From Chloroflexota bacterium (GTDB taxonomy: Bacteria > Chloroflexota > Dehalococcoidia > Dehalococcoidales > JACQON01): a stretch of 64,000 nt of DNA. The position numbers were made by a program, and so were the translations under genes. This document shows, piece by piece, positions 48,806 through 64,000 of the stretch. How positions within the stretch are numbered: the stretch's first letter is position 1; each line of letters opens with the position of its first letter. Below the pieces are notes generated by a model, which saw only the letters and a program-made list of their open reading frames with translations, searched no databases and was not told the origin of the DNA. The stretch covers positions 32,639-96,638 of the forward strand of contig JACQON010000021.1 of NCBI GenBank assembly GCA_016202545.1, given 5' to 3'.

Positions 48806-49518
48806 ACCAGTTCAACGGCTTTCCCCAGAGGATGCAGTTTACCCCTATCCCCAATTTGTTCCTCAGCGCTCTCCTGCCGCAAATTGACGACGTCGCCGAG
48901 CTAAAGACGGTACTGCACCTGTTTGCGGCGCTCTATCACAAGCGGGGCTATCCCCGCCTTGTCACCCGCGGGGAGCTTCTGGAGAATGCCGGACTGATGA
49001 GCTGCCTTAAAGGGGGGGCAGAGCCGCCCGGGGAGACGCTGCGCCGCACCCTGGAGATGGCCGCCAGGCGGGGCATCATCCTCCACCTGGCGCTGGACAA
49101 AGACGGAGAGGCTGAGGATGTGTACCTCCTCAACACCGCCCGCGATAGGGATGTCATCGCCAGAATTCAACGGGGCGAGCTCCGCCTGAGCGGGCTCAAG
49201 CCCCGGGGGCAGGTCCCCGTTGACGCCGGTGAGCGGCCTGACATCTTCACCCTCTACGAGCAGAACGTTGGCATGTTGACCCCCATGCTCGCCAACGAGC
49301 TAATCGAAGCCGAAAAGCACTATCCCGCAGCCTGGATTGAGGATGCCATCAAGGAGGCGGTTGCCGCTAACAAGCGGAGCTGGCGGTATATCGCCAGCAT
49401 CCTGGAGCGATGGTCAGCAGAAGGCAAAAGCGATGGAACACATAGGCGAGGTCCTGCGCCGGGGACAGACCCGGACAAATATATCAAAGGCAAATACGGA
49501 CACATGGTCGGACGCTAG
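48802..49518 (+). CDS. DnaD-domain replication protein
   Basis: YEQNVGMLTPMLANELIEAEKHYPAAWIEDAIKEAVAANKRSWRYIASILERW. Confidence 0.85.
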   Translation: MNQFNGFPQRMQFTPIPNLFLSALLPQIDDVAELKTVLHLFAALYHKRGYPRLVTRGELLENAGLMSCLKGGAEPPGETLRRTLEMAARRGIILHLALDKDGEAEDVYLLNTARDRDVIARIQRGELRLSGLKPRGQVPVDAGERPDIFTLYEQNVGMLTPMLANELIEAEKHYPAAWIEDAIKEAVAANKRSWRYIASILERWSAEGKSDGTHRRGPAPGTDPDKYIKGKYGHMVGR

Positions 49519-50851
49519 GCAACCTGAGCCGCCATCCGGTGCAACCTGTCCCATCTGTAAAGGCGCCGGGTTCGTTCATCCCCTCACCGACTCAGGGAAG
49601 CCCGACTTCGGCCGGGTGGTTGCCTGCCGCTGCGCCAAAGACGAACTGGGCAAAACGCACCGCGACCGCCTGGTCCGGTACAGCAACCTGGGCCTGCTGA
49701 CTCGCTTCACCTTTGACAACCTGATACCACAGGGCAGAAGCGGTGACCCGGCCAACCAGGAGCTATTCAGCCATGCCTGTGAGGCAGCCAGAGCATTTGC
49801 CGCCGAGCCCAAAGGATGCCTGGTGCTGACCGGCCCCAGCGGCAGCGGCAAGACGCATCTGGCGGCGGCTATCGCCAACGCCTGTCTCGCCGGCGCCCGC
49901 CCGGCGCTGTTCGCCACCACCCCCGACCTCCTTGACCACCTTCGGGCCGCTTTCAACCCCAACAGCGAGATGCCTTATGACGAACTCTTCGACCGGGTGA
50001 GCAACGCTCCGCTGCTCATCTTGGACGATTTCGGCGTCCAGGCCAGCACGCCGTGGGCCAGAGAGAAGCTGGACCAATTGCTGAACCATCGCTTCGCCAG
50101 GGAGCTACCCACGGTAATCGTCGCCATTGTGCCCTTTGACCATCTGGAGGAGAGGATACGCACCCGGCTGACCGACCCCAGGCTATGTCACATCTGCGTG
50201 CTTGAGGGAGAACGGGCTTTCCTCCAGGATTACGCCGGCGGGCTGGAGCTAAAGCTGCTGCGGAATATGACCTTTGACAACTTCGACTGGAGGCGGGTCA
50301 ATCTATCGGCAGAGCAGCGAGAGAACCTGGAACAGGCATTCCGCCTGGCCCTTGAGTTCGCCAAATCCCCCGAAGGCTGGCTGGTATTTACGGGCATGAC
50401 CGGCTGTGGCAAGACGCATCTGGCGGCGGCTATCGCTAACTACCGTCTTCAGGCGGGTAAGCCAGCCCTGTTCATCGTGGTGCCCGATTTCCTTGACCAC
50501 CTGCGCTCAACCTTCAGCCCGGAAAGCAAGGTGCCCTATGACCGGTATTTTGAAAGCGTGAAGAACGCTCCGCTGCTCATACTGGACGACTTTGGCGAAG
50601 AGTCAGCCACGCCGTGGGCCCAGGAGAAGCTTTACCAGGTCATCAACTACCGCTATAATGCCCAGCTACCCACGGTGCTCACCACCCGCAGCTCCCTGGA
50701 CGAAATCGAGAGCCGCGTCAGCTCCCGGCTGGTAGACCCTAAAATCAGCCTGGTGTGGAATATCATCGTCCCTGATTACCGCGGTGATTCGCAGCCCAGC
50801 CAGGGACCCAGGGCAACGTACCGCCGCGGCAGGAAAGGACGCCAGAGCTAA
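49433..50851 (+). CDS. DnaC/DnaI-like helicase loader with two tandem AAA+ domains
   Basis: GPSGSGKTHLAAAIA and GMTGCGKTHLAAAIA; two copies of NAPLLILDDFG...STPWA..KL. Confidence 0.88.
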   Translation: MEHIGEVLRRGQTRTNISKANTDTWSDARQPEPPSGATCPICKGAGFVHPLTDSGKPDFGRVVACRCAKDELGKTHRDRLVRYSNLGLLTRFTFDNLIPQGRSGDPANQELFSHACEAARAFAAEPKGCLVLTGPSGSGKTHLAAAIANACLAGARPALFATTPDLLDHLRAAFNPNSEMPYDELFDRVSNAPLLILDDFGVQASTPWAREKLDQLLNHRFARELPTVIVAIVPFDHLEERIRTRLTDPRLCHICVLEGERAFLQDYAGGLELKLLRNMTFDNFDWRRVNLSAEQRENLEQAFRLALEFAKSPEGWLVFTGMTGCGKTHLAAAIANYRLQAGKPALFIVVPDFLDHLRSTFSPESKVPYDRYFESVKNAPLLILDDFGEESATPWAQEKLYQVINYRYNAQLPTVLTTRSSLDEIESRVSSRLVDPKISLVWNIIVPDYRGDSQPSQGPRATYRRGRKGRQS

Positions 50852-52780: not shown

Positions 52781-53848
52781 TCAGGCGGGGAGGCCTTTCC
52801 TCACCCGCTCCTCCTTTCTGGGGATACTTAGCATCAGCACCTCCAGCACCAGCTGGGGATTAGCGTTTTGTTTAAGCTGCTCCCCGGCTGCCAGGATGCT
52901 TGCCACAACGTCTTTTATCTGAGAAATCCGGTAGTGCCCGGCCATGTCAGTCAACCTGGATTCGAGGTCAAGGTTGGTAATCGCTCCGGCGCAGCCCGCC
53001 TTGACCAGCAACAGGTCACGCCAGTAGCCAAGCCACATCTCCAGCACTTCATGGACTGAGCCTCTGTCCTGGCTGAACCGGGTCGCCAGCCGGGCGGCGT
53101 GGGTGAAGCGCTTCTCATAGTCGGCATCAATGATGTCGAGCAAGCCGCCCATTATCTCGGCGCGCTGGCCGAGCCAGCCGTTTTCGCCAATGGCTGACAC
53201 CGCCTGCCCCAGACAGCCGCGACAAAGCCTGGCCAGGAGCCGGGCCTTTTGCGGCTCGACGCCCCAGCCGCGAACGAGGGCCGCCTCCGCCTCACCGGGC
53301 GCCAGCGGGAGTAGCTCCAGTCGCTGGCAGCGGGAGACTACCGTGGCCGGTAACAGCCTCTCATCGGACGTCAGCAATATGAAGACCACCCTGTCTGCCG
53401 GCTCCTCCAGCGTCTTGAGCAGGCAGTTGGCTGCCTCGATTGATAGCTGCTCAGCACCGTCGATGATGAACACCTTGCACCTACCCTCGAACGGCGGCAG
53501 GCTGGCGGCGTGCTGGAGCTGCCTTACCTGGTCGATGCTGACCTCCGTCCTGGTCCTGGCCGTGTTGTCGTCCTGGGCCAGGCCGATGACCTGGACATCG
53601 GCATGCCTGGCCGAGGCGATTTTCTGGCACGCGTCGCACTGTCCGCAGGGAGGGTTGGCCTGTTCGCAGTTCAGCGCCTGCGCCAGATTCAGGGCGAGGG
53701 TCATCTTGCCCACGTGCGGCAGACCGGCAAAGAGGTAAGCATGGGCCACTGCTCCCTTCTCCAGGCTGCATTGGAGAAAGGAGACCGCCCTACCCTGCCC
53801 AATCACCTGCCACACTGTGCACCCCCGTTTCGCTAGGCTAAGTCGCAC
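52781..53848 (-). CDS. holB: DNA polymerase III delta' subunit
   Basis: AYLFAGLPHVGKMTLALNLAQALNC; CGQCDACQKI; LLKTLEEPADRVVFILLTSD. Confidence 0.9.
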   Translation of the reverse strand: MRLSLAKRGCTVWQVIGQGRAVSFLQCSLEKGAVAHAYLFAGLPHVGKMTLALNLAQALNCEQANPPCGQCDACQKIASARHADVQVIGLAQDDNTARTRTEVSIDQVRQLQHAASLPPFEGRCKVFIIDGAEQLSIEAANCLLKTLEEPADRVVFILLTSDERLLPATVVSRCQRLELLPLAPGEAEAALVRGWGVEPQKARLLARLCRGCLGQAVSAIGENGWLGQRAEIMGGLLDIIDADYEKRFTHAARLATRFSQDRGSVHEVLEMWLGYWRDLLLVKAGCAGAITNLDLESRLTDMAGHYRISQIKDVVASILAAGEQLKQNANPQLVLEVLMLSIPRKEERVRKGLPA

Positions 53849-55155
53849 CTGACCAGGTCATCGAGGGTTTCCCGGCGCCGGATAAGCTGCGCTCTGCCTT
53901 CCTTGACCAGGACGATGGCCGGCTTAAACGAGGCGTTGTAGTTGCTCGCCATGGGCAGACAATAGGCGCCAGAGCAGGGTATGGCGATGATGTCACCCGG
54001 TGAGACCGGCGGCAGGTCAATGTCCCTGACCAGTATGTCGCCTGACTCGCAGAACTTGCCGGCGATAGTCACCTTGCTGCTTTCCTTTTCGGCGGCCCTG
54101 TTGGCCACCATGGCTTCATACCTGGCGCCGTAAAGGGCAGGGCGGATATTGTCCGCCATGCCTCCATCTACCGAGACATAGCGCCGCACACACGGTATCT
54201 CCTTGACTGCCCCCGCCTCATATAGCGCCACTCCGGCCGGCCCGACTATCGCCCTCCCCGGCTCGATGACCAGCCGTGGCAATTCCAGCTTTAGCTCTCG
54301 GCATCTGGCTGTGACTGCTGACACGATGACCTCGGCGTAGGCGGCCACCGGCGGGGGCGGGGAGTCCACGGCGTACTGGATGGCAAAACCTCCGCCAACG
54401 TTCAGCTCCCGAAGCTCAAAGCGGTGTTTCCGCTTCATCTCGGCGGCAAAGCCGGTTACCAGTTCGATAGCCTTGTGGTACGGCTCGACCTCGAAGATGA
54501 GAGAGCCGAGATGGAAATGCAGGCCGACCAGGCGCAGGTTGGCCGCCGACATTGCCCGGGCCACGGCCTCCTCTCCCAGGGCCAGCGGAAAGCCGAACTT
54601 GCTGTCAACAACGCCGGTGGCGATATACCGGTGGGTATGCGGGTCAATCCCTGGTGTCAGACGCAGCAGCACCTCCGGCTTATAGCCCTTCCCGCCAGCA
54701 ATTTCATCCAGCAGGGCAAGCTCATGGAAGTTATCTACCACCATGCGGCCGATGCGGCACTCCAGGGCCAGCCCGATTTCCGCGGCTGACTTATTATTGC
54801 CGTGGAAATAGACCCTGTCCATGGGGAAGCCCGCCAGCCGGGCGATGCCCAGCTCTCCCGCCGAGACCACGTCCAGCCCCAGCCCCTCCTCCTGGAAGAT
54901 GCGCAGCAGGGCCTTGTTTACGAAGGCCTTGGCCGCATATTGCACTGAAGTTTCGGGATAGCGGCGGCCGAACTCTGTCCTGAACTCGGCGCATCTGCTG
55001 CGCAGGCTGACCTCATCGAAGATATACAGCGGCGTGCCAAACTGGGCCGCCAGCTCCACGGCATCGCAGCCGCCAATCATTATGTGGCCTTGCGTGTTCA
55101 CCTCAGCGGTCTGCGGAAATAGGGATAGCCTGGGAATAGTCTGCCTGGTCGTCAT
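53833..55155 (-). CDS. lysA: diaminopimelate decarboxylase
   Basis: FGTPLYIFDEVSLR, VQYAAKAFVNKALL, YFHGNNKS, GCESGDIL-like KFCESGDIL, GAYCLPMASNYN. Confidence 0.94.
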   Translation of the reverse strand: MTTRQTIPRLSLFPQTAEVNTQGHIMIGGCDAVELAAQFGTPLYIFDEVSLRSRCAEFRTEFGRRYPETSVQYAAKAFVNKALLRIFQEEGLGLDVVSAGELGIARLAGFPMDRVYFHGNNKSAAEIGLALECRIGRMVVDNFHELALLDEIAGGKGYKPEVLLRLTPGIDPHTHRYIATGVVDSKFGFPLALGEEAVARAMSAANLRLVGLHFHLGSLIFEVEPYHKAIELVTGFAAEMKRKHRFELRELNVGGGFAIQYAVDSPPPPVAAYAEVIVSAVTARCRELKLELPRLVIEPGRAIVGPAGVALYEAGAVKEIPCVRRYVSVDGGMADNIRPALYGARYEAMVANRAAEKESSKVTIAGKFCESGDILVRDIDLPPVSPGDIIAIPCSGAYCLPMASNYNASFKPAIVLVKEGRAQLIRRRETLDDLVRCDLA

Positions 55156-55370
55156 CTCCGTCCCTCTTAATGGTAACAGTGCCGCATGGTGAAGTCAATT
55201 TGATACTATTGAAGACTGCTTAGCAGCCTATCCCCTAGCACTCAGAAAACTTAAGATTCTTCTTGAAGCCTCCCGGCTGGCCTCCACCTGCGTCCGTCGA
55301 TTAACGCACCAGGCACTCTGGTGAGTTCAGAAATGTGGTATAATTCAACCAATATACACCACAATCTCTG

Positions 55371-56213
55371 TTGGGGCAAAGAGGTCAAGTGCTCGTCTTT
55401 ATAAGCTACGAAACGACGACTGGGTTAAGCTACGCTAGTAACATTAAAGAGGCGCTTAGGAAGATAAACATATCCGCATTTGTGGCAGATGAGGATATTC
55501 CAAAGGGTGCCGAATGGAAAAAGATCATTGATAAGGCTATAAGCAACTGTAAATACCTTGTCGTCATCATGACTATTCTTGCAATCAAGACATCGGATGA
55601 GGTGAAAAGAGAGATAGAGATAGCAAAAATATTACAAAAGAATATTATCCCCTGCAAGCCTCGCAGAGTTGACAGATTCTTCACCTCCATGTTGCCTTTG
55701 GTAAGTGAATTGCAGCAAGTCGATTTTGATGGTAAAGAAGACCTAGCTGACCAAATAGTGACAGTAATCACAAATCAGGAGCAGGGAAAAACAGTTGTGC
55801 GGTCAGGTACACAAGAAACAAGAATAACGGAGCCCCCAAGTGAGGCATCAGCGAGAATGACGGAATATCATAACCTGTCATCAGCAGTAATTGCCCTGAT
55901 GGTTGATAATAATTTGACGAGGATACCAAACTCGCATAATTTCGCTGGTGGCGTTGCTTACAATGATATGACGGTCTTCCCTGATTCAAATACATCAGTA
56001 GCCAACAAAGCATATACTGGATACACTGGAGTTGGTACTCCAAAAGCTGGATATGTGCTCTATGCTCATGACAAAATAGGCGCAGATACCACCACTTTTG
56101 AGCGTGTCAACTACGTTACTGAGGCGAAGGCAAGGTATTATTACACCTGTGAAGCTGATGGGACAATACGCCAGTTCAGTGATGCAGCCATGACGACTGA
56201 GTACACCGATTAA
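55371..56213 (+). CDS. TIR-domain protein fused to type IV pilin-like globular domain (likely start GTG 55389)
   Basis: VLVFISYETTTGLSYASNIKEALRKINISAFVADEDI...TSDEVKREIEIAKILQKNIIP (TIR); C-terminus SARMTEYHNLSSAVIALMVDNNLTRIPN matches pilin at 63648. Confidence 0.82.
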   Translation: MGQRGQVLVFISYETTTGLSYASNIKEALRKINISAFVADEDIPKGAEWKKIIDKAISNCKYLVVIMTILAIKTSDEVKREIEIAKILQKNIIPCKPRRVDRFFTSMLPLVSELQQVDFDGKEDLADQIVTVITNQEQGKTVVRSGTQETRITEPPSEASARMTEYHNLSSAVIALMVDNNLTRIPNSHNFAGGVAYNDMTVFPDSNTSVANKAYTGYTGVGTPKAGYVLYAHDKIGADTTTFERVNYVTEAKARYYYTCEADGTIRQFSDAAMTTEYTD

Positions 56214-56588
56214 CACAGTGGGGCGAATGAAAGATTTTGCCTAAAGACTTGTTCTACGCCTTCGATTTATCCACAAATCAACTCATTGGGTAAACACCTC
56301 CCAAAAGAAAAACCTCGGGGTCACCGAATAGGACGAGGCGTGACCAAAGTGCCAGTATAGATTCTTATAGCTGCATAAAATGTCATAATTGGCGTAGTGG
56401 CTGGGAGATACCGGATAAGCTTGCCGAATCGTCCCAAAGCATACGGCGATTGCCTGATTGGCTTCGGCTCCCTACAAAGTCTCCTCCCTTTGACAGGTGA
56501 GTCGAAGAGAGGCGAAATTGACACCAGACAGGGATGCCGTTAGAATTGGAATATTGTAGCGCCGAAAACGGCCAGAAGGGGCAGGAGA

Positions 56589-57851
56589 TTGTACCGAAAG
56601 ACGACTCTGGATAACGGGCTGCGCGTGGTCACCTCGACCATGCCCAACACCCGTGCCGTATGTATCTGTGTCTTTATCGGCGCCGGCTCCCGCTATGAGA
56701 GCGAGACAGAGGCCGGCAGCTCCCATTTCCTGGAACACCTGCTCTTCCGGGGCACATCAAGGCGGCCCACCGCTACGGACATTGCCGAAGCGATAGAGGG
56801 GACGGGTGGCATCATTAACGGCGGCACTGACAAGGAACTGACGGTCTACTGGTGCAAGGTGGCCCGGCCCCATTTCCCCCTGGCCCTGGATGTGCTTACC
56901 GACCTGCTGCTTCACCCCAGGCTTGACCCCCTGGACATGGAGAAGGAGCGGCAGGTCATCATTGAAGAAATACATATGAGCGTGGACTCGCCAGCGCAGC
57001 GGGTTGACATGCTGATTGATGAGCTGCTGTGGCCCAATCACCCCCTGGGGCGTGATGTCGCCGGCACCAAGGAGTCGGTGGCGGCCATCACCAGAGACTC
57101 GATACTCGGCTACCAGGCGAGCCACTATCTCCCCGGCAGCACCGTGGTCGCCATTGCTGGAGATGTTCAGCACGAGGAGATGGTGAATGCCGTCAGCCAC
57201 GCTCTCGGCGAGTGGGCCAGCTCAAGTCCTCGCCCGGCATACTCGGCTTACCGGGAGCAGGCCGCCGTGCCTCTGCGCATCGAGACCAGGGATACCGAGC
57301 AGGCCCATCTCTGCCTGGGGCTGCCCGGCCTGTCGCTGTTTCACCCGCGGCGGTTCACCCTGGACCTGACCAATGCTATCCTGAGCGAGGGCATGAGCAG
57401 CCGTCTGTTCACCGAAATCCGTGATAAGCTGGGGCTGGCCTATAGCGTTCACGGCTACATCGACCACTTCCTTGATTCCGGCTCCGTGGTGGTCTATGCC
57501 GGGGTGGAACCACAAAAGCTGAAGATAGCCATCAGAGCCATACTGGAACAGCTCTCCCGGCTTAAGGAGCCAGTCCCTGAAGCCGAGCTATCCAAAGCCA
57601 AGGAGATGACCAAGGGGCGACTGATATTACGAATGGAGGACAGCCACAACGTGTCCGCCTGGCTCGGTGGGCAGGATGTCCTCACCAGCCGCATTCTGAC
57701 CGTGGACCAGGTCATCTCGATTGTTGACGCCATCACCGCGGAGGAGATACAAGAACTGGCCCGGGAGCTGCTGGCGGATAGCCAGTTGCGCCTGGCGGTG
57801 GTCGGCCCGGTCAGAGATGATGAGCCGCTGGGAGAGCTTCTCAAGCTATAA
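56589..57851 (+). CDS. M16 family zinc peptidase
   Basis: HFLEHLLFRGT (HxxEH), NGGTDKELTVYW, EIRDKLGLAYSVHGYIDHF. Confidence 0.94.
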   Translation: MYRKTTLDNGLRVVTSTMPNTRAVCICVFIGAGSRYESETEAGSSHFLEHLLFRGTSRRPTATDIAEAIEGTGGIINGGTDKELTVYWCKVARPHFPLALDVLTDLLLHPRLDPLDMEKERQVIIEEIHMSVDSPAQRVDMLIDELLWPNHPLGRDVAGTKESVAAITRDSILGYQASHYLPGSTVVAIAGDVQHEEMVNAVSHALGEWASSSPRPAYSAYREQAAVPLRIETRDTEQAHLCLGLPGLSLFHPRRFTLDLTNAILSEGMSSRLFTEIRDKLGLAYSVHGYIDHFLDSGSVVVYAGVEPQKLKIAIRAILEQLSRLKEPVPEAELSKAKEMTKGRLILRMEDSHNVSAWLGGQDVLTSRILTVDQVISIVDAITAEEIQELARELLADSQLRLAVVGPVRDDEPLGELLKL

Positions 57852-63647: not shown

Positions 63648-64000
63648 ATGAGGATACCGAAAAAGGGACAAAAGGGGTTCACCCTGATTGAGCTGCTGAT
63701 TGTGGTCGCCATACTGGGTGTGCTGGCGGCGGTGGTCATCCCCAACGTGGGGCGCTTCCTGGGCCGCGGAGAGGCTGAGGCCAGGAGGACGGAGTTCCAC
63801 AATATATCGTCAGCAGTCATCGCCATGATGACCGACAATGGCATCACCGCAATACCGAACCCAGTAAACGCTGCCGGGCTCGTAGCCAGTAATCAAATGG
63901 GGCTTGTAGGCTCCCCGGCTACAGACGGCTTCCCTGATTACAAGTCGGAGTGGACGGGAACTCCCGGCGGCAAGACCACAGACCCCGCCGGAGCCAGTTA
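63648..64000 (+). CDS. type IV pilin-like prepilin, truncated by window end; not in ORF track
   Basis: caaggaggtaaaag RBS; MRIPKKGQKGFTLIELLIVVAILGVLAAVVIPNVGRFLGRGEAEARRTEFHNISSAVIAMMTDNGITAIPN. Confidence 0.93.
   Translation, partial: MRIPKKGQKGFTLIELLIVVAILGVLAAVVIPNVGRFLGRGEAEARRTEFHNISSAVIAMMTDNGITAIPNPVNAAGLVASNQMGLVGSPATDGFPDYKSEWTGTPGGKTTDPAGAS

Follow-up and report, generated by a model that had tools for sequence, protein, structure and literature searches.

A TIR domain fused to the soluble head of a type IV pilin in a Dehalococcoidales genome: a candidate sensor-gated effector

The fusion gene and its neighbours

The stretch of DNA analysed here (the window) comprises 64,000 nucleotides of a contig, designated C13, from a member of the Dehalococcoidales whose assembly amounts to 1.74 Mb in 34 contigs and is 88% complete. 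An open reading frame on the forward strand of the window encodes a protein that begins as a TIR domain and ends as the head of a type IV pilin (Table 1). The 289-codon open stretch in which this frame lies was equalled by none of 2000 shuffled versions of the region, where the longest open stretch was 189 codons. The first-pass annotation placed the gene at 55371 to 56213, counting 280 amino acids from a TTG codon. The frame is present at that position, but GTG at 55389 is a likelier start than the TTG, since the sequence AGAGGT lies directly 5' of the GTG and the protein then opens (M)LVFISYE like other TIRs. A TATAAT preceded by TGG further upstream may be an extended -10 promoter element, which is graded weak because it lacks a good -35 and the promoter scan made no call there.

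The gene is flanked by housekeeping genes, lysA and a gene for an M16 peptidase, and no convincing defence genes or defence island were found beside it. No mobile element was found at the fusion gene; direct repeats are absent and a single imperfect inverted pair lies inside the gene. Elsewhere in the window (49337 to 50851, forward strand) there is a gene for a 504-residue protein with what seem to be two DnaC/IstB-like ATPase domains in tandem.

Table 1. Coordinates of the fusion gene, its parts, its neighbours and related heads (window positions, or positions within the named locus)
Feature	Position	Strand	Basis or remark
Fusion open reading frame	55371..56213	+	280 aa from TTG; open stretch of 289 codons
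Probable coding sequence	55389..56213	+	GTG start, 274 aa; direct reading
AGAGGT	55380-55385	+	Just 5' of GTG 55389; direct reading
TATAAT, possible extended -10 element	55339..55344	+	Follows TGG; direct reading, weak
TIR domain (Pfam TIR_2, PF13676)	55395..55742	+	E 3.5e-13; covers residues 9-124 (280-aa numbering)
Putative catalytic glutamate (E75 from the GTG start)	55611-55613	+	Glu of KRE, invariant in alignment
Linker, TIR to head	55743..55841	+	From the end of the Pfam match to the first pilin-homologous residue
Pilin-head module, about 123 residues	55842..56210	+	Homology to pilin; profile matches in pilins, PilO-like proteins and lipoproteins
lysA, diaminopimelate decarboxylase-like	53833..55155	-	Flank; Pfam
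M16 peptidase	56589..57851	+	Flank; Pfam, synteny
Native type IV pilin, first 117 aa	63648..64000	+	Runs off contig; N_methyl PF07963, E 3e-10
Head-ending lipoproteins with NTF2-like or TSP3-repeat N-terminal parts	L049:1090-1875	+
	L051:1474-2262	-
	L028:1489-2103	-

The TIR half

TIR domains are usually NAD-cutting immune effectors. The N-terminal TIR domain proposed in the first-pass annotation is borne out by a complete match to Pfam TIR_2, which scores 50.5 bits against a curated cut-off of 28 and is the sole TIR_2 match that Pfam yields in the 34-contig assembly. The glutamate of a KRE motif had been named as the likely counterpart of the catalytic residue of TIR NADases, and it keeps that putative role: E75 is unchanged in all six of the aligned TIRs (the fusion and five others), which is what the catalytic residue of an NAD-cleaving TIR should show, and the region around it aligns, in a weak match, with the WVHKE stretch of SARM1.

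The closest relatives of the TIR half among 399 genomes of the phylum are 28-39% identical (E about 1e-8), and searches with PADLOC and NCBIfam gave weak matches to the TIRs of Thoeris, TIR-TM and retron systems. AlphaFold2 was run on the whole protein and on the head alone, both with low confidence; the best structure matches of the full-length model (pLDDT 48) are the TIR domains of SPARTA, RRS1, SARM1 and AbTir, at non-significant E values of 0.03-0.6.

The pilin-head half and the native pilin

The C-terminal module consists of the amphipathic second half of the pilin helix followed by a head that is probably beta-rich. Its low-confidence AlphaFold2 models (pLDDT 48) have a helix and then strands, with no PDB match at E≤0.001. 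A gene for a native type IV pilin lies 7.4 kb from the fusion gene, within the window, and runs off the end of the contig; a piece encoding the C-terminal part of the pilin occupies positions 1-136 of locus L006, at the start of contig C29. The fused head is homologous across its full length to the soluble part of this pilin, with 55% identity to the C13 part (53 residues) and 58% to the C29 part, which covers the last 43 residues. The 31-residue stretch that the first-pass annotation had compared with the pilin at 63648 is indeed identical at 21 of 31 positions. All of the head motifs are matched in the fusion (the helix, the FPD motif, GYxLYxHD and YxYTxxxDGTxRQ), and the protein ends TTEYTD-stop as the native pilin does.

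We infer that the pieces on C13 and C29 belong to a single native pilin gene with a short unsequenced middle, and not to two pilins in tandem. Relatives carry two tandem pilins at the place where the contig end interrupts this gene, and because of this the break may reflect a tandem pair that collapsed.

Unlike the pilins of Dehalococcoidia, the fusion has neither a prepilin cleavage site nor the hydrophobic N-terminal helix: its 289-codon open stretch exceeds the 280-residue frame by only nine codons and opens as TIR. The fusion point falls just past the hydrophobic N-terminal half of the pilin helix, where it had been placed before. The accompanying proposal that the pilin-like part is cytosolic also appears sound, in that the fusion protein is probably cytosolic because no signal peptide or membrane helix is visible by eye.

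A recurrent module of Dehalococcoidia

In a profile search of 156 genomes of the order, the best matches to the fused head were PilO-like proteins and not pilins. Head-bearing PilO-like proteins number 16 copies in 15 genomes (G074 has it twice), and most are 316-350 residues long with the head inserted near the C terminus. Their identification as PilO rests on a neighbouring PilM-like gene (PilM_2, E 2.7e-4, under the cut-off) and on an N-terminal membrane helix, since Pfam gives no match for the proteins themselves. The carriers (loci L009-L023, for example L009:1405-2355 on the reverse strand and L020:985-2370 on the forward strand) span at least four families of Dehalococcoidales, and G074 has two heads in tandem. 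The PilO-like protein of the window genome itself (C29:2142-2720, reverse strand) is a plain form without the head. The suggestion, made in a review, that PilO of monoderm bacteria may have a second role (PMC6916266) fits a PilO that bears a pilin head.

The same head also ends lipoproteins with a signal peptide, whose N-terminal part looks NTF2-like by eye in two genomes (G215, G193) and has a TSP3 repeat before the head in a third (G143). The boundaries of the head are nearly constant in all carriers: the module starts with the amphipathic half of the pilin helix and extends to where the head stops. It corresponds to no Pfam model, and a wider search extending to the phylum gave just two marginal matches outside the class. 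Based on the near-constant boundaries, the varied carriers and the near absence of matches outside the class, the head is a shuffled module practically confined to Dehalococcoidia, and the TIR is one acceptor among several.

It was asked whether other TIR-pilin fusions exist, and so far the fusion is known from one assembly only. A second TIR-head fusion turned up neither in the searched genomes of the order, class, phylum and two further orders nor in collections of phages, plasmids, viruses and genomes. A scan of genome contigs with the head profile returned eight loci; those read were PilO-like, with one pilin (L077), and none was a TIR fusion. The genomes searched include no second member of the genus or family of the window genome. 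The absence of a second fusion is thus weak counter-evidence, since this genome is the only one of its genus and family among those searched and both halves share a foreign codon usage; the observation of the fusion itself is confirmed.

Origin of the head and probable acquisition of the gene

In a tree of 31 heads, the fused head sits next to PilO-type heads (support 99/95), apart from the native pilin; of the 45 columns conserved at ≥90% among PilO heads, it keeps 38. Identity along the head forms a mosaic, however, in which the helix (residues 1-40) and the C terminus (101-120) are nearest the native pilin (55-70% in 20-residue windows) and residues 51-90 are most like PilO-type heads. Simple derivation from a PilO-type head was not kept as an explanation on account of this mosaic, despite the tree. 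Both the mosaic and the placement in the tree would be accounted for by recombination or by an unsampled pilin whose middle is PilO-type.

The idea that the head was recently copied from the native pilin was likewise rejected. At the DNA level the two are 63% identical in one alignable part and 76% in the other; synonymous sites are saturated or nearly so, and codon usage differs. With dN at only 0.15-0.26 while synonymous sites are saturated, the two sequences appear to have been under purifying selection over most of their shared history.

The fusion gene differs in composition from its surroundings. Codon adaptation is 0.401 in the TIR half and 0.412 in the head half against 0.62-0.72 in the flanking genes, GC3 is 0.45 and 0.41 against 0.68-0.82, and regional GC falls from about 0.6 to 0.42 at the gene. 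In one relative (G152) groEL, M16 and lysA follow one another, with 425 bp separating M16 from lysA and no TIR gene, and in other relatives the spot holds different genes or has a different neighbour. The gene was probably acquired laterally as a single, already-fused unit; arrival as one gene is suggested by the foreign codon usage common to both halves together with the empty site in G152. The head-bearing PilO loci of three relatives have a GC content of 0.48-0.50, which makes a relative with moderately higher AT content a possible donor.

The interval between lysA and M16 (window 55160-56588) varies among relatives: it is empty in L094, TlpA-like and CcdA-like genes lie beside M16 in L096, and L097 has a signal-peptidase-like gene. 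Since its content differs in this way, the interval may be a small integration hotspot.

Possible functions of the fusion protein

The reading we favour, at about even probability, is that of a single-gene, laterally acquired TIR protein, a probable NAD+-consuming effector in which the head serves as a sensing or oligomerising gate. The N-terminal TIR would most likely be the NAD+-consuming effector, held inactive until the C-terminal head binds a ligand or assembles, an event that would bring TIR domains together. Candidate ligands for the head are a pilus-binding phage protein, a component of the pilus-assembly machinery, or another copy of the fusion itself. That the head gates a TIR NADase is most likely by analogy with sensor-gated TIR proteins. 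Known TIR effectors pair the TIR with a variable sensing module, CARF-TIR Cat1 being an example (PMC12162218), and the TIR groups of prokaryotes have diverse architectures (PMC7075850). DSR2 is an NADase switched on by a phage protein (PMC11087589). NADase activity, cytosolic location and a sensing role of the head are all deduced, and a head located in the cytosol would have no obvious natural partner, given that elsewhere it occurs in proteins expected outside the membrane.

Another reading, which is rather unlikely, is that a shuffled head came to lie in frame after a TIR gene, giving a non-functional by-product that is idle or being lost. The promiscuity of the module (in pilins, PilO-like proteins and two kinds of lipoprotein) would favour such an accident, as would the fact that the fusion is a singleton whose TIR half has no close relative. 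On the other hand, the frame is intact across its 289 codons, structural residues are kept in both halves, and the single codon usage of the two halves implies that they have been together for some time. A fusion created by the joining of two unrelated sequences during assembly or binning is highly improbable. The source is admittedly one draft genome, probably metagenome-assembled, but the join is uninterrupted and in frame, and the halves share one composition; a chimeric contig is also less likely because the genes on either side are neighbours in G152, where they are adjacent without the fusion gene.

Two more specific versions of a sensing role differ in what the head would detect. Phage receptor-binding and superinfection-exclusion proteins are made in the cytosol during infection. 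A cytosolic head that imitates the pilin could offer a docking site for such a pilus-binding phage protein, which would turn on the TIR, so that phage proteins targeting pili would trigger cell suicide in the manner of the integrated decoys of plant NLRs. This arrangement is unlikely overall. It is consistent with the gene encoding only the part of the pilin that would be exposed, without the membrane helix, and with the similarity of the two ends of the head to the genome's own pilin; phage structural proteins are also known triggers of NADase defence, for instance of DSR2 (PMC11087589). The middle of the head, which is likely its surface-variable part, is PilO-type and unlike the native pilin, however, no phage of the group with a pilin-binding protein was identified, and the fusion has neither a second example nor a counterpart in the papers found. 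The first-pass description of a sensor that mimics a pilin stands only in part: the homology to the pilin head is clear, but mimicry is just one reading of it, because the head is a shuffled module shared with PilO-like proteins and lipoproteins. Alternatively, the head could bind a type IV pilus assembly protein or prepilin, with the TIR signalling or killing when pilus assembly jams. The presence of the head in PilO-like assembly proteins suggests head-head or head-machinery contacts that such self-monitoring could exploit, and the pilin gene is close by in the window. Self-monitoring is nevertheless very unlikely, since the heads of pilins and PilO-like proteins should lie on the outer face of the membrane whereas no export signal is visible by eye in the TIR protein, and the gene is foreign in composition.

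Relation to known systems and significance

The fusion resembles the single-protein bacterial TIRs of the TIR_2 family in its complete, above-cut-off match and conserved glutamate, and differs from them in that its C-terminal domain is a pilin head and not TPR, STAND or transmembrane. Similarity to ThcB4 of type III Thoeris (NCBIfam NF058526) and to ThsB is confined to the TIR and is weak (E 2.4e-6). Assignment to Thoeris or another PADLOC system was rejected: the score is 26.7 bits against a cut-off of 220 for NF058526, PADLOC ThsB matches at E 0.0076, and the neighbours, with lysA and M16 as the flanks, include no ThsA-type effector gene. CARF-TIR Cat1 (PMC12162218) and TIR-STING (PMC12421889) likewise join a TIR to a second, ligand-sensing domain, but the fusion has no CARF or STING domain and no cyclic-nucleotide synthase was seen among its neighbours.

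Modular pilins such as PilB of Streptococcus sanguinis (PMC8179133) also combine a pilin module with another domain, in the reverse arrangement, since there a domain is added to a complete pilin whereas here the head of a pilin has moved onto another protein. The head-bearing PilO-like proteins of Dehalococcoidales have the same module with the same start point and are most similar in its middle section, but in them the head is inserted near the C terminus of a membrane-anchored assembly protein. Literature searches found no paper on TIR, pilin and Thoeris together or on a fusion of TIR and type IV pilin in anti-phage defence, and pilins are not mentioned in a large survey of TIR proteins (PMC7075850).

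TIR effectors with many kinds of sensor are known, and no paper found describes a piece of a pilus as the partner domain. If the head does sense, abortive infection would be coupled directly to a structure that serves as a phage receptor. Whether or not it senses, Dehalococcoidia have moved an unnamed head module among pilins, PilO-like proteins, lipoproteins and a TIR protein, and this shuffling raises the testable question of how pilin heads contact the assembly machinery.
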